A stretch of DNA of 64,000 nt from positions 1,823,985 through 1,887,984 of the forward strand of contig NZ_KB900609.1 in assembly GCF_000379105.1 (NCBI RefSeq), in the 5' to 3' direction. Numbering within the stretch: position 1 is the first letter of the stretch; the number at the start of each line of letters is the position of its first letter. The stretch is from Methylobacterium sp. WSM2598 (GTDB taxonomy: Bacteria > Pseudomonadota > Alphaproteobacteria > Rhizobiales > Beijerinckiaceae). This document shows, piece by piece, positions 9,330-57,453 of this stretch. A program made the translations under genes and the position numbers. The notes under the pieces are model-generated. The model saw nothing but the letters and a program-made list of their open reading frames with translations, was not told the DNA's origin and did no database searches.

Positions 9330-9411
9330 CGACATCCGCCGGATGGGGTCGCCATGCGGATGTCGGCTTCGCTCAAGCCCGCGTCGGGCCGGGCCGACAC
9401 TCCCGCTCTTA
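9330..9411 (-). repeat. Modular 3'-end element, copy 1
   Basis: Read on the minus strand, this follows the stop of the cyclase gene: a GTCGGCCCGGCCCGAC palindrome, then the linker CTTGAGCGAAGCC, then a hairpin GACATCCG...CGGATGTC. The same linker and second hairpin recur at 11781, 57351 and 60321. Here it also lies directly after fliP, so it could act as a bidirectional terminator between convergent genes. Confidence 0.75.
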
Positions 9412-11780: not shown

Positions 11781-11925
11781 CATACGACATCCGACGGATT
11801 GCTTCGCCATGCGGATGTCGGCTTCGCTCAGGCGCCGCGCTCAGGCGCCGCGCTCAGGCGCCGCGCTCAGGCGCCGCGCGGGCTCGTGATCCGGGAGCCG
11901 CTTCGATCAGGCCGATCCCGGATCA
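11781..11925 (-). repeat. Modular 3'-end element, copy 2, with four 13 bp units
   Basis: On the minus strand the element starts at the stop codon of the GT51-like gene: TGATCCGGGATCGGCCTGAT pairs with a downstream TCCCGGATCA. Then come four exact copies of GCTCAGGCGCCGC (11826-11877, plus-strand sense), the GAGCGAAGCC linker, and a GACATCCG...CGGATGTC hairpin. Copy 4 at 60321 has the same order, with the stop codon likewise the first bases of the first hairpin. Confidence 0.85.
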
Positions 11926-13914
11926 CTCCTGCCAGATGCCGGCCTTGCGCGCCCTGGCGTTCGCCTCCGCGGCGAGCAGCTCCGGCGTGGCCCCGGGGGC
12001 GGCCCGCCCCGCCCCGTTGAACAGCACGACCTCGGACAGGTCCTGCGATCCCGCCCGGCAGCGATAGACCTCCGCCTCGCCCGCCGGCTCGCACGAGACG
12101 TCGCGCTGGCGCAGGTACTGGCGGAACTCGCGGGCCGCGCGGCCGCCCTGGCCCTCGACCCCGAACAGCCGCACCGGCTGGCCCTCGACCTTGAGGCGGC
12201 CGGTATCGACCACCCGCGCGGTGCCGCGCAGCGGCGGGGGATGGCGCGGCTCCTCGGGGGGCTGCCAGGTGCGGCGGGCGGCGGCCCCCCGCGGCGGCGG
12301 CTCGCTCCGGTCCCGGAGCTTCGCGGCGAGGTCCTGGAAGATCTCGGACGGGCCCGCGCTCGCGGCGCCCTCGTCCTCCGACGCCACCCAGACGCCCAGG
12401 GTGACGTCGCCGGCCGGCCCGACCGCGAGGCCGTCCCGGGCGGCGGGTGCCGCCGCGACGCCCTCGGGCAAGCGGGCGAGGCCGGACAGCAGCGCGAAGG
12501 CCCGCGCCCGCACGGTCGCGGGGTCGAGCGTGGCCGCCTGGGGCCGGTCGTAGACCGGGCGCCCGTCGCGGGTCACCCGGCGCAGGCTCGCCTCCGCGGC
12601 GGCGCGCCCGGCCGGATCGGCCGCGAGCGGGCTGCCGCCGCTCACCGCGGCGAGGATCGCCCCGTCGGGGCCGAGGACCACCAGCCCGGCCCGGTCGCCC
12701 CGGTTCCTGGCCGCCGCGTCGAGGCGCTTGTTCACGGCCGCCTCGGCGGCGGATTGGAGCGACCGGTCGAGGGAGATGCGCAGCGAGGCGTTCCGCACCT
12801 CGTCGCCGAGGCGGTCGCGGGCCGCCAGCACGGCGAGGTCGACGACCCCGCTGCGGGTGACCGCCGTCGCGGTGGGCGACTTGATCGCCGCGAGCGCGCG
12901 GCCCGCCTCCTCCGCCTCCAGGCGCGTGATGGCGCCCGTCATCACCATGGCGTCGAGGACGCCCCGGGCCCTGGCACGGGAGGCCTCCACGTCGCGGTCC
13001 GGCCGGAGGTCGGCGGGGGGCAGGGTGAGCCCGGCCAGGAGGGCGGCCTCCGCGGTGGTGAGGTCGCGCGGGGCCTTGCCGAGCAGCCGCTCGCTCGCGG
13101 CGTCGAGCCCGATCAGGTCGGGGCCGAAGGCGGCACCGCTCAGGAAGCGCGCCACGATCTCGTCGGGGCTGGCCCGCGCCTGCAGCCAGAGCACCAGCAT
13201 CGCTTCCTGCAGCTTGCGCACGAGGCCGCGCTCGCCGCCGAGGAGCTGGGTGCGCACGAGGCGCTGGGTGAGCCGCGCGCTGCCCTCGCGCGGGCCGGGG
13301 CTGATCGTGTCCCGGAAGGCGCCGCGGATCACCGCCGCGACGCCGGCGGCGTCGAGCCGGTGGGGATCCATGAACCACGGATCCTGGGCGGCGATGATCG
13401 CGCGCCGCATCGCCGGCGCGATGGCCGAGGCGGGCAGGGGCCTGCCCCGCAGGCTGCCCCGCGTGGCGAGCACTTCGCCGTCCTCGGCCCTGACGGTGAC
13501 CGGCGCGCTGGCCGGGCCCGGCCCGTCGAGGCGCGGCAGGGTCGCGGCGCTCACGGCGAGGAGCGCGGCGCAGCCCACGAGGAGGAGCAGGCCGAGGGCG
13601 AGGGCGAGCCGGCTCCAGCGCAGGGCGGCGAGGCGCTCGGCCGCGGCTCCGGCGCCGGAGCGGGCGCGCCGCGCCAGGGGATGGGCGGCGAGGCGGGCGC
13701 CGGCGCGGCCCGCCGTGAGGCGCAGGGGCGCGACCCTGGCGGCGAGGGCCGGCTGCCAGCGCGCGGCGACCGCCTGTCCGACGCGGACGGCCTCTCCGGC
13801 GATCCGGGCGGACCATCCGGGAGGCGGCGCCTGCGGCGGGGGAGGGGCGGGAGCCGGGGAGGACCCGAGATCCAGCCAGTCACGCTCGGGCGCTGTCGAG
13901 GTCTCCGCCAGCAT
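11923..13914 (-). CDS. Membrane GT51-like (PBP1-type) protein with SNase-like C-terminus; probable pseudoenzyme
   Basis: A 663-aa membrane protein with the layout of a class A penicillin-binding protein but degraded catalytic sites. A Pro/Ala-rich cytoplasmic region precedes one membrane segment (about 103-126). The GT51 region (about 150-310) keeps EGSARLTQRLVRT and VRKLQEA, but the catalytic Glu of the usual ED..F motif is Gln (AAQDPWF). Only the edges of a transpeptidase domain remain (VVLGPDGAILAAVSGG and TLGVWVASEDEG); SxxK, SxN and KTG motifs are absent. The last ~95 residues resemble a staphylococcal-nuclease fold (RVVDTGRLKVEGQPVRLFGV through ARARKAGIWQE) without the catalytic Asp residues. 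ATG at 13914 is chosen; an in-frame TTG at 13992 would add 26 residues. A structural or regulatory cell-wall role is inferred. Confidence 0.8.
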   Translation of the reverse strand: MLAETSTAPERDWLDLGSSPAPAPPPPQAPPPGWSARIAGEAVRVGQAVAARWQPALAARVAPLRLTAGRAGARLAAHPLARRARSGAGAAAERLAALRWSRLALALGLLLLVGCAALLAVSAATLPRLDGPGPASAPVTVRAEDGEVLATRGSLRGRPLPASAIAPAMRRAIIAAQDPWFMDPHRLDAAGVAAVIRGAFRDTISPGPREGSARLTQRLVRTQLLGGERGLVRKLQEAMLVLWLQARASPDEIVARFLSGAAFGPDLIGLDAASERLLGKAPRDLTTAEAALLAGLTLPPADLRPDRDVEASRARARGVLDAMVMTGAITRLEAEEAGRALAAIKSPTATAVTRSGVVDLAVLAARDRLGDEVRNASLRISLDRSLQSAAEAAVNKRLDAAARNRGDRAGLVVLGPDGAILAAVSGGSPLAADPAGRAAAEASLRRVTRDGRPVYDRPQAATLDPATVRARAFALLSGLARLPEGVAAAPAARDGLAVGPAGDVTLGVWVASEDEGAASAGPSEIFQDLAAKLRDRSEPPPRGAAARRTWQPPEEPRHPPPLRGTARVVDTGRLKVEGQPVRLFGVEGQGGRAAREFRQYLRQRDVSCEPAGEAEVYRCRAGSQDLSEVVLFNGAGRAAPGATPELLAAEANARARKAGIWQE

Positions 13915-14209
13915 GTCGTCGATGCGTCCCTCGCGGCGGGTGGCCGGGCTCAGGGTGGCCGGGCTCACGGCCACGGTCCCCGAAAACGCCAATCACCCGG
14001 CAAGGTTCCCGCCGGCGCGCCCGCGCGCCGCACGGTTCGGCCCCCGGCGGAGCCCCGGCGCGGCGCTTCCGATCTGTCTTGTCCTGCCACTCACCAGAAC
14101 AGGAATGACGATCACCTTGGCAATAGCGGCGAGGTATGCCGGCGGAATGGAACGATAGTCATGAGACGACGTTTTGAGGCAGATTTTTCTGCACTCTCGG
14201 AGGAGCATC

Positions 14210-15439
14210 ATGACGAAATCGTCCATGGGCCGCGTGACCGTCGGCCTCGCCGCCCTGCTGATCAGCACCTCGGTCTTCGCCCAGACCGGCGCCGGGTCGC
14301 CGGGCGGGTCCGCGGGCGGGCAGGGCGCCGCGATGTCGGGCAGCGGCTCCGGCGGCCGGTCCTCCGGCGATGCCTCGTCCGGCGGGGCGACGCGCGCCGG
14401 CGGGCAGGGCGCCCGCAGCGAGAACGGCAGCGAGGGCAACATGGGCCAGGGCAACATGGGCCAGGCCGGCACGGGCCAAGGCAAGATGAGCCAAGGCAAC
14501 ACGGGCCAAGGCAACACGGGCCAGCGCGGCGCCCGGCAGGAGATGGGTGCCCGCGACGACAAGGGCGAGGGCCGCGGCCGGCACGAGGCCGGGATGGACG
14601 GGCGCGACCGCGACGGCCGCCAGGCCCGCGAGGAGATGCGGGGCGGCCGCGACAGCGTCCGGCACGAGCGCGGCGTGCATGCCGAGCGGACCCGCGAGGA
14701 GCACGGCAGCGTGCGCACCAGCAGCCGCGAGGAGCACGTCGGCGGGCGTCGCACGGTGACGGTGGCGGGCCAGCGCGTCGTCTACGGCTCGCCCGAGTAC
14801 CGCCGCCTGGTGGTGATCGAGCAGCGCCAGAAGCGCGGCGTGCGCCATGCCGGGTCGGAATTCGTGGTGATCCAGGGCCGCCGCGTGCGGGTCGGCTCGC
14901 CCGAGTACCGCCGCCTCGTCGTCCGCGAGCATAGCGGGCCGCGCTACGTCGTGGTCCACGGCCGGCGGGTGGTCTACGGCTCGCCGGAATATCGCCGGCT
15001 CGTGGTCACCGAGCGGTCGAGCACGACCGGCAGCGTCGGGATCCGCGGCGAGCGGCACGACCGGGTCGACGTGCGCTCGAGCGAGCGGAGTTCGGTGCGC
15101 GGCGGGCGCGACGAGATCCGCACCGGCGAGCGCCGCGAGGAGCGCGGCACGAGCGAGCGCGGGCGCAGCGAGCAGCGCGCCGGTCAGGAGCGCGGGCAGG
15201 GCAGCAGCGACCGCATGAGCCAGGACCGCTCCGGTCAGGACCGGATGGGCCGCGGCGGCCAGGACCAGTCCCAGGGCCTGCGCGACCGCTCGGGCGGCCA
15301 GGGCCGCGGCGGCGCGCCCGAGACCACCGGCAGCACGATGCGCGGCGGCCAGGGCGGTGGCCAGGGCGGCGCGGCGGGCGCCTCGGGCGGCGCCGGGAAG
15401 GCGGGCGGCGCCGGCGCCTCGGGCGCGGGCCGCATGTGA
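14210..15439 (+). CDS. Secreted repeat-rich protein with three GSPEYRRLVV units
   Basis: An exported 409-aa protein of unknown function. The signal peptide is MTKSSMGRVTVGLAALLIST ending at VFAQ. It is followed by a Gly/Ser/Gln-rich stretch with short N-M-G-Q / N-T-G-Q repeats, an Arg/Glu-rich region, and three well-conserved units built on GRRVVYGSPEYRRLVV (about residues 185-265). The tail is again Gly/Gln-rich. ATG at 14210 is chosen for its GGAGGAG ribosome site 5 nt upstream. No catalytic motif is visible. The repeated unit has a regular beta-strand-like pattern, so surface or matrix binding is possible. A terminator follows. Confidence 0.8.
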   Translation: MTKSSMGRVTVGLAALLISTSVFAQTGAGSPGGSAGGQGAAMSGSGSGGRSSGDASSGGATRAGGQGARSENGSEGNMGQGNMGQAGTGQGKMSQGNTGQGNTGQRGARQEMGARDDKGEGRGRHEAGMDGRDRDGRQAREEMRGGRDSVRHERGVHAERTREEHGSVRTSSREEHVGGRRTVTVAGQRVVYGSPEYRRLVVIEQRQKRGVRHAGSEFVVIQGRRVRVGSPEYRRLVVREHSGPRYVVVHGRRVVYGSPEYRRLVVTERSSTTGSVGIRGERHDRVDVRSSERSSVRGGRDEIRTGERREERGTSERGRSEQRAGQERGQGSSDRMSQDRSGQDRMGRGGQDQSQGLRDRSGGQGRGGAPETTGSTMRGGQGGGQGGAAGASGGAGKAGGAGASGAGRM

Positions 15440-15910: not shown

Positions 15911-17545
15911 ATGCTGAAAACCGCTTTCGTTGCGGCGCGCGACCGGCAGCGCCTCCAGGAGATCGCCGGGATCCTGATCGGGTTCGGCGTGAACCAGGTC
16001 GTGGACCGCCTCGGCCTGCGGGCGATCCCGCGCCTCGCCTGGCGCAGCACGCCGGCGGTCGACCTCACGCGCCTGTCGCAGCCCGAGCGGATGCGCCGCG
16101 CCATCGAGGCGCTGGGCCCGACCTTCATCAAGCTCGGCCAAGTGCTGGCGAGCCGGGCCGACCTCCTCGCCCCGCAATGGACGGAGGAACTCGGCAAGCT
16201 CCACGACCGGGTGGCGCCGGTGCCCTGGGAGGTGATCCGCCCGCAACTCGAGGCCGACCTCGGCGCTCCCCCGAGCGAGATCTTCTCCGAGTTCGACACC
16301 AATCCGCTCGCCTCCGCCTCCATTGCCCAGGTCTACCGGGCGCGGCTGGAGAGCGGCGAGGAGGTGATCGTCAAGGTGCGCCGCCCCGGCGTGCAGAAGA
16401 TCATCGAGGCCGACCTGCGGCTGCTCTCGCACGCCTCGCGCATCGTCGAGAGCGAGTGGCCGGAGATGACGCGCTACCGGCCGCACGAGCAGATGCGCCA
16501 CATCGCGCAGGGCCTGCGCGAGGAACTCGACCTGCTGAACGAGGCCCGCAACTGCGAATTGCTCGCCGGGCTGTTCGCGGACCGGGACGACATTGTCTTC
16601 CCGAAAATCTACTGGGAATGGACCTCCGAGCGGGTGCTCGTGCAGGAGTTCATCCACGGCATTCCCCCGACCGACATCAAGCGGCTGGACGAGGAGGGCT
16701 ACGACCGGGTGGTGCTGGCGCAGCGCGGCACCGACGCCTTCCTGCAGATGTCGCTGATCGAGGGCGTCTTCCACGCCGACCCGCATCCCGGCAACCTGCT
16801 CTGCCTGACCGGCAACCGCATCGCCTTCGTGGATTTCGGCATCATCGGGCGGCTGTCGCAGCGCCGCCGGGCCCAGCTCCTGATCCTGATCGGGGCGATG
16901 CTGAAGGAGGACGCGGACGGGCTGATGGCGGTGCTGCTCGACTGGACCGGCGGCAGCGCGCCCGACCTGACCCGCCTGGAGGCCGCCTCGCAGGCCTTCG
17001 TGATGCGCCACAACGGGGCGACCCTGAATCTCGGGGTGGTGCTCACGGATTTCATGACCATGGCGCGCGAGAACGACCTCGCCATGCCGACCGACCTGGC
17101 GATCCTGTTCAAGGGCCTCGTCACGGCCGACGGGGTGATGCGCCAGCTCGACCCGCAATTCGACCTCTTCGCGGCGGCCGGCCCGACCGTGAAGCGCACG
17201 ATGCGCACGCGCTTCTCGCTCAAGGAGGTCAAGAGCAAGTTCGAGGGGCTCGCCGCCGGCCTCTACGGGGCCGCCTCCGAGCTGCCGACCCTCGTCCACC
17301 TGATGCTGGTGCGCCTGAAGCAGGGCCGCGTCACGGTGGAGATCGAGCTCAAGGGCATGGACAAGCTCACCCGGGGGATCGAGCGGGCGGCGGCCCGGGT
17401 GGCGGTGGGGCTGGTGGTGGCGGCCTTCGCCACGCAGCTCGCCCCGAAGCTCATGGAGCACGGCACCCCGGCCTTCGCGACGATCGGCATCCTGGTCCTG
17501 ACGATCGGCATCGGCTGGATCCTGCTCCTCGCGCGCAACCGCTGA
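15911..17545 (+). CDS. UbiB/ABC1/ADCK-family atypical kinase
   Basis: A 544-aa member of the UbiB family, ATP-binding proteins linked to ubiquinone synthesis or lipid handling at the inner membrane. The KxGQ motif is present (GPTFIKLGQVLASRADLL), followed by the Ala-rich loop region ASASIAQVYRA, the catalytic stretch FHADPHPGNLL and the metal motif VDFGIIGRL. Two hydrophobic C-terminal segments end in WILLLARNR, typical of UbiB membrane anchors. It stands alone rather than with ubiE/ubiJ, so a paralogous lipid role is possible. Confidence 0.9.
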   Translation: MLKTAFVAARDRQRLQEIAGILIGFGVNQVVDRLGLRAIPRLAWRSTPAVDLTRLSQPERMRRAIEALGPTFIKLGQVLASRADLLAPQWTEELGKLHDRVAPVPWEVIRPQLEADLGAPPSEIFSEFDTNPLASASIAQVYRARLESGEEVIVKVRRPGVQKIIEADLRLLSHASRIVESEWPEMTRYRPHEQMRHIAQGLREELDLLNEARNCELLAGLFADRDDIVFPKIYWEWTSERVLVQEFIHGIPPTDIKRLDEEGYDRVVLAQRGTDAFLQMSLIEGVFHADPHPGNLLCLTGNRIAFVDFGIIGRLSQRRRAQLLILIGAMLKEDADGLMAVLLDWTGGSAPDLTRLEAASQAFVMRHNGATLNLGVVLTDFMTMARENDLAMPTDLAILFKGLVTADGVMRQLDPQFDLFAAAGPTVKRTMRTRFSLKEVKSKFEGLAAGLYGAASELPTLVHLMLVRLKQGRVTVEIELKGMDKLTRGIERAAARVAVGLVVAAFATQLAPKLMEHGTPAFATIGILVLTIGIGWILLLARNR

Positions 17546-57353: not shown

Positions 57354-57453
57354 TCCGCTGTCCGGACGATCAGTTCCGGACAGCGTGTCACAAGCCCGCG
57401 CGGCGCTTGAGCGAAGCCCAAATCCGCATGGCGACGCGATCCGTCGGATGTCG
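57351..57453 (+). repeat. Modular 3'-end element, copy 3
   Basis: Begins with the DUF1330 stop codon TGATCCG, then a hairpin CGCTGTCCGGA / TCCGGACAGCG, the linker GCTTGAGCGAAGCC, and a variant of the GACATCCG hairpin ending CGGATGTCG. Same order and orientation relative to the upstream gene as the copies at 11781 and 60321. Confidence 0.75.

Follow-up and report, generated by a model that had tools for sequence, protein, structure and literature searches.

Why would a bacterium keep an intact gene for a protein built like a class A PBP that has lost the catalytic residues of both reactions? The gene raising this question lies in a 64,000-nucleotide stretch of Methylobacterium sp. WSM2598 DNA, the window of this analysis, and its features are collected in Table 1. 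An earlier note on this DNA had called it a relic with three dead sites. We find instead, with very little doubt, a maintained pseudoenzyme, here termed pseudo-PBP: a paralogue under purifying selection, with median omega below 1 in every domain.

Table 1 Features of the pseudo-PBP gene and its neighbour (window coordinates)
Feature	Position	Strand	Basis
Pseudo class A PBP gene, 663 aa + stop	11923..13914	-	Open frame; 28 family members aligned, window protein included; median omega <1 in every domain
N-terminal part, residues 1-103, presumed cytoplasmic, fast evolving	13606..13914	-	
Hydrophobic helix, residues 104-126, presumed membrane anchor	13537..13605	-	Helix 100-124 in model; hydrophobic sequence
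GT51 domain, residues 147-323	12946..13476	-	
Codon CAG, Gln177 replacing general-base Glu	13384..13386	-	
Collapsed transpeptidase domain, residues 345-540, without SxxK, SxN, KTG	12295..12882	-	
SNase-like tail, residues 562-663, without key nuclease residues	11926..12231	-	
Cys608 of tail, possible disulfide partner	12091..12093	-	Cys in 66/66 tails
Cys619 of tail, possible disulfide partner	12058..12060	-	Cys in 66/66 tails
Divergent neighbour gene, repeat-bearing protein	14174..15439	+	Adjoins pseudo-PBP gene in 17/18 informative loci, own genome included

Catalytic residues of the two PBP domains

The window protein belongs to GT51 by sequence family and by fold: Transgly (PF00912, 95 bits) is its sole Pfam domain, and the GT51 fold is modelled with pLDDT mostly ~90. 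Membrane anchoring and periplasmic placement are presumed from family knowledge and the hydrophobic helix; residues 1-33 have pLDDT mostly <50 in the structure model. E. coli PBP1B and PBP1A share the GT51 fold and the general layout, but they are active enzymes, whereas the window protein lacks both catalytic centres. To our knowledge, neither E. coli protein has an SNase-like tail.

In alignments with PDB entries, PBP1b chains among them, Gln177 stands under the motif-I Glu. According to a review (PMC4632607), this is the key catalytic glutamate (E94 in PBP1A, E233 in PBP1B), and its mutation blocks the reaction. All 28 aligned family members have replaced the Glu, 25 by Gln and 3 by Arg, and a contig-cut copy outside the 28 (G001) has Gln too. 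The 28 comprise the window protein, its same-species copy, close database proteins and genus-scan loci; of the 22 close database proteins, 12 were not added because the loci already included them. When the window protein is aligned with its 22 closest relatives among the matches listed (P0003-P0024; P0002 is the window's own), the Glu is likewise absent from 23/23. Where an organism is given for these relatives, it is always Methylobacterium, and none of the 22 has a transpeptidase Pfam domain. The protein search behind them scored the 7995 candidates that had most words in common with the query, and the best 120 of 129 matches are listed.

In the other GT51 proteins compared, the motif-I Glu is fixed. 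It is present in 30/30 two-domain paralogues (20 parental, 10 from genomes without the gene) and in 97/97 further GT51 proteins among the matches listed, 96 of them with a transpeptidase domain and one, P0114, in which no such domain was seen. The window's own genome has 9 GT51 loci, and a simple pattern finds the Glu in seven of the other eight; the eighth (L006) is unmatched by a pattern that also left some motifs of the other own-genome GT51 proteins unmatched. Glu-bearing close homologues, which had been named as what would speak against a conserved loss, do not occur inside the family (0/28), but the parental paralogue (20/20) and the other-genome paralogues examined (10/10) all have the Glu.

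Might another residue stand in for the Glu, so that the glycosyltransferase is still active? The second Glu of motif III, E237, is present in 28/28 family members and could be such a residue. We nevertheless consider this reading very improbable, given Gln or Arg here against Glu in every one of the 97 other GT51 proteins among the matches listed, and given the block that its mutation causes in PBP1A and PBP1B (PMC4632607). From these residues we infer that the pseudo-PBP makes no glycan and that the parental PBP is active.

The transpeptidase half has fared no better. Read against the general roles of PBP motifs, the loss of SxxK, SxN and KTG is complete: as the earlier note had stated for the window protein, all three are missing, here from 28/28 family members, and all are intact in 30/30 two-domain paralogues. 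PF00905 has no match in the window protein up to E 10, and NCBIfam PBP-family models match far under their cut-offs, ending at residue 438 or earlier. What is left is modelled as a compact fold and is predicted to be transpeptidase-like.

Duplication within one Methylobacterium clade and the shared tail

Tree and genus scan together show, at the level of sequence, that a class A PBP gene was duplicated within one Methylobacterium clade to give this gene. Among 111 Methylobacterium genomes, a near-complete copy occurs in 18 and contig-end pieces in 2 more (G001, G010), and the parental PBP is present in all 20 (three of these parental frames are truncated, at a contig end or at the edge of the retrieved region). 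In a tree of 12 family proteins, 11 of the 20 parental and 6 of the 10 other-genome paralogues, 8 further homologues and 3 other own-genome GT51 proteins, the pseudo-PBPs form a clade among class A PBPs (100/100) whose sister group is the parental paralogues (99/97), with the other-genome paralogues outside; the stem of the clade measures 1.38 changes per column, and long stems can mislead. The family subtree and the parental subtree both contain the G000+G030 pair and the main group, as expected under vertical inheritance, and the placement of G032 differs between the two (95/89 in one, 82/55 in the other). Conservation across Rhizobiales was considered but not supported: close relatives among the matches listed carry only Methylobacterium names, and the gene is in 20/111 genus genomes. 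The family alignment that the earlier note had suggested for Rhizobiales thus confirms the Glu loss as fixed, but within a single clade.

In the own genome, the parent (L002/L055) is an 812-aa frame scoring 206.5 bits with PF00912 and 88.9 bits with PF00905. It shares anchor, GT51 domain, transpeptidase core strands and SNase-like tail with the window protein and differs in having the Glu, SxxK, SxN and KTG. The two are 39% identical across residues 100-449 and 46% identical across residues 493-662.

The tail, modelled separately, is predicted to take up a staphylococcal-nuclease (SNase) fold, as had been anticipated; its pLDDT is ~45 in the full-length model, which is why the separate model was used. 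The catalytic residues of SNase are Asp21, Asp40, Glu43, Arg35 and Arg87. In an alignment of 66 tails, the Asp21 position is never Asp, and the Asp40 position is Glu in the window protein (Glu in 46 tails, Asp in 12), so that the nuclease-like C-terminus indeed lacks its catalytic Asp residues. The loop bearing Glu43, named as active site in the title of PDB entry 1snm, is a gap, and the Arg35 position is Arg in 62/66. The tail shares its predicted fold with staphylococcal nuclease and with Hyphomicrobiales SNase-family proteins (a reference set of 15 of 20 loci, chosen by intact active-site motif) but lacks the Asp21 equivalent and the Glu43 loop and is fused to a membrane protein. Standard SNase models barely detect it, so fold and profile comparison were needed: PF00565 gives 14.5 bits on the window tail, under its gathering cut-off of 21, matches 15 of 23 tails scanned at E <=10 (best E 0.0089) and has no match in the own genome at an E threshold of 0.001, and a sequence profile search of the tail against the PDB reached a best E of 0.1.

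A recent tail fusion specific to the pseudo-PBP was rejected because the parent and the other genomes' paralogues have the same tail. Since the active parent has both the tail and its dead nuclease site, fusion and dead site predate the pseudo-PBP. All three sites do lack key residues, but on this sequence comparison the tail is non-catalytic already in the parent, leaving two losses in the pseudo-PBP rather than three.

The SNase-like tail domain occurs in 110/111 Methylobacterium genomes. In a class sample of 289 genomes, the tail model matched in 19: 2 Methylobacterium genomes and 17 others, the latter with scores of 37 to 84 bits. Tail frames were read in three of those 17 genomes and one more (L096-L099): L097 looks like an ordinary SNase, and the site motifs are altered in L098 and L099. 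In L096 (G205, from another family of the class), a frame of 431 aa, a close tail relative scoring 83.5 bits is joined to an unrelated N-terminal part; the tail therefore also exists outside Methylobacterium, on a non-PBP protein.

The own genome holds a further tail frame. Near 2402184 of its contig (G000:C1), L116:1501-2781 is a 427-aa frame with a hydrophobic stretch, the same tail and no PBP domain, and L114 (G009) is a 486-aa frame similar to it. The L116 protein is probably membrane-anchored and is likely to be the third protein that uses the tail module. Its existence suggests a docking role for the tail in the periplasm, and we regard the non-catalytic SNase-like domain as a probable periplasmic interaction module.

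Selection on the duplicate and its possible role

Purifying selection on the pseudo-PBP is shown by sequence comparison to be strongest on the tail. Over 135 genome pairs, mean identity in the pseudo-PBP is 0.709 for GT51, 0.705 for the transpeptidase remnant and 0.861 for the tail, and in the parent 0.937, 0.900 (remnant-equivalent transpeptidase part) and 0.925. Median omega for the same three domains (134 or 135 pairs per domain) is 0.349, 0.332 and 0.175 in the pseudo-PBP and 0.108, 0.172 and 0.157 in the parent. The N-terminal part has a median omega of 0.509 versus 0.480 in the parent and, together with the anchor, a mean orthologue identity of 0.578; the whole pseudo-PBP has a median of 0.338 (range 0.228 to 0.677, 135 pairs). 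Non-synonymous divergence points the same way, with dN(GT51) above dN(tail) in 135/135 pairs of the pseudo-PBP versus 41/135 of the parent, and omega(GT51) above omega(tail) in 133 versus 33; because genome pairs share branches, these pair counts are non-independent, and the rates are medians over such pairs. In 7/7 hand-picked species pairs, dN(GT51) likewise exceeds dN(tail) in the pseudo-PBP. The cut parent copy of G024 and the same-species pair G000-G050 were excluded from the identity, omega and dN comparisons, and pairs with dS >=1 or 0 from omega. Columns invariant in the two-domain paralogues (<=1 exception) are retained at 35/54 in the tail, 43/113 in GT51 and 20/97 in the remnant. 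Constraint thus eased about threefold on GT51 after duplication and hardly at all on the tail.

These rates bear on slow decay as a pseudogene. In favour of decay, the GT51 and transpeptidase parts of the pseudo-PBP change at several times the parental rate. Against it, the frame is full-length and unshifted, as first described, and open without a stop in 28/28 aligned family members; the N-terminal part has a median omega of 0.51, the other parts lie between 0.18 and 0.35, and tail constraint is close to the parent's. Given the intact frames and the omega values, we rejected decay as hardly credible. The earlier note's reading of the intact frame as a sign of selection holds across the family, and the role in wall assembly that it suggested may apply as well.

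With the catalytic residues of both reactions lost and the tail strongly constrained, the pseudo-PBP is likely a binding partner or regulator and not an enzyme. We think it probable that the tail is its main functional part. An extreme form of that idea is that the tail alone matters and that the GT51 and transpeptidase parts are passive remains spacing it from the membrane. The tail is the most conserved domain, and the third carrier L116 does without a PBP domain. However, GT51 and remnant keep 43 and 20 of the two-domain-enzyme columns and are still under purifying selection, and the model shows the remnant folded compactly; we regard passive spacing as unlikely. GT51 at an omega of ~0.35, with its 43 invariant columns, may have a function of its own.

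Such a function could be ligand sensing: the GT51 cleft would bind lipid II, polymer ends or undecaprenyl pyrophosphate without turnover and signal through the tail. Consistent with this are the well-modelled fold, the clearly sub-unity omega, the retention of Glu237, Thr216, Gln217, Arg221 and Asp178 in the family, and new fixed residues such as T214R and R179P (<=1 exception each in 28). Yet R180, N202, S213 and Q218, invariant motif positions of the two-domain paralogues, are never seen in the family, and K234 is retained in only 4/28 members, one of them the window protein. Over residues 139-340, the GT51 part, mean net charge drops from +8.5 in parental PBPs to +1.9, with lysine nearly gone (0.7% versus 4.9%), and GT51 constraint is weaker than the tail's. 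We rank a sensor below our best explanation and regard it as unlikely.

The best explanation, held with slightly less than even confidence, is that the pseudo-PBP is a conserved class A PBP duplicate acting as a membrane-anchored non-catalytic partner, which competes or recruits for the active parent through their common tail. A class A PBP was duplicated within one Methylobacterium clade, the parent persisted, and the duplicate lost the motif-I Glu and the three transpeptidase motifs. In the periplasm, its tail would dock onto a partner that the parent binds as well, and by competing for or recruiting that partner the pseudo-PBP may tune the parent's wall synthesis. Points against this role are the purifying selection on GT51, a conserved neighbour that is not a recognised wall gene, and the faster evolution even of the tail relative to the parent (identity 0.861 vs 0.925). 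More tentatively, the pseudo-synthase might be a dedicated regulator that has its pseudo-nuclease docking tail in common with the parent and a third membrane protein and sets parent activity by competing for, or delivering, a common partner.

The partner reading has a parallel in catalytically inactive LytM factors, which according to PMC8416486 have a wall-enzyme fold without catalysis and regulate active wall enzymes; theirs is a hydrolase fold, not a synthase fold, and for the window protein regulation is putative. Among the matches listed from open-licence full-text literature, neither a conserved Glu-less class A PBP nor an SNase-like PBP tail is described. A clade-wide, selected loss of the Glu in an intact duplicate offers a natural separation-of-function case: it can show what a PBP-shaped protein contributes to the wall machinery when it neither polymerises glycan nor cross-links peptides. 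The pseudo-PBP also exposes an SNase-like domain that is widespread in the genus and weakly detected by the Pfam SNase model. If the docking reading is true, it would amount to a tail-based control circuit of wall synthesis; we know of no counterpart among described PBP regulators.

Locus surroundings

The protein of the divergent neighbour gene matches no Pfam family up to E 1, and the gene is not a recognised wall gene. It contains three 84-base repeat copies, 62-71% alike, coding a GSPEYRRLVV-type motif with glycine-rich flanks. A functional link with the pseudo-PBP is putative; neighbour-like proteins occur in 89/111 genus genomes, so co-occurrence is not specific, though adjacency is conserved. 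In the sole informative locus without the neighbour (L014, in G004), tblastn at E up to 0.001 finds no match within 1500 bases past the pseudo-PBP, and the L022 locus is cut.

After the neighbour gene, at 15911, follows an ABC1/UbiB-type gene that lies near the pseudo-PBP in 9/10 fetched loci; 8 regions fetched around neighbour-like genes in genomes without the pseudo-PBP contain no UbiB match >70 bits. The surrounding genes give no pathway hint, and no consensus promoters were found in the divergent intergenic region. Separately, an identical 24-base element (GCCATGCGGATGTCGGCTTCGCTC) occurs at 9351-9374 and 11806-11829, near gene ends, and 2-mismatch copies, where none is expected by chance, lie on the other strand at 57409 and 60380.
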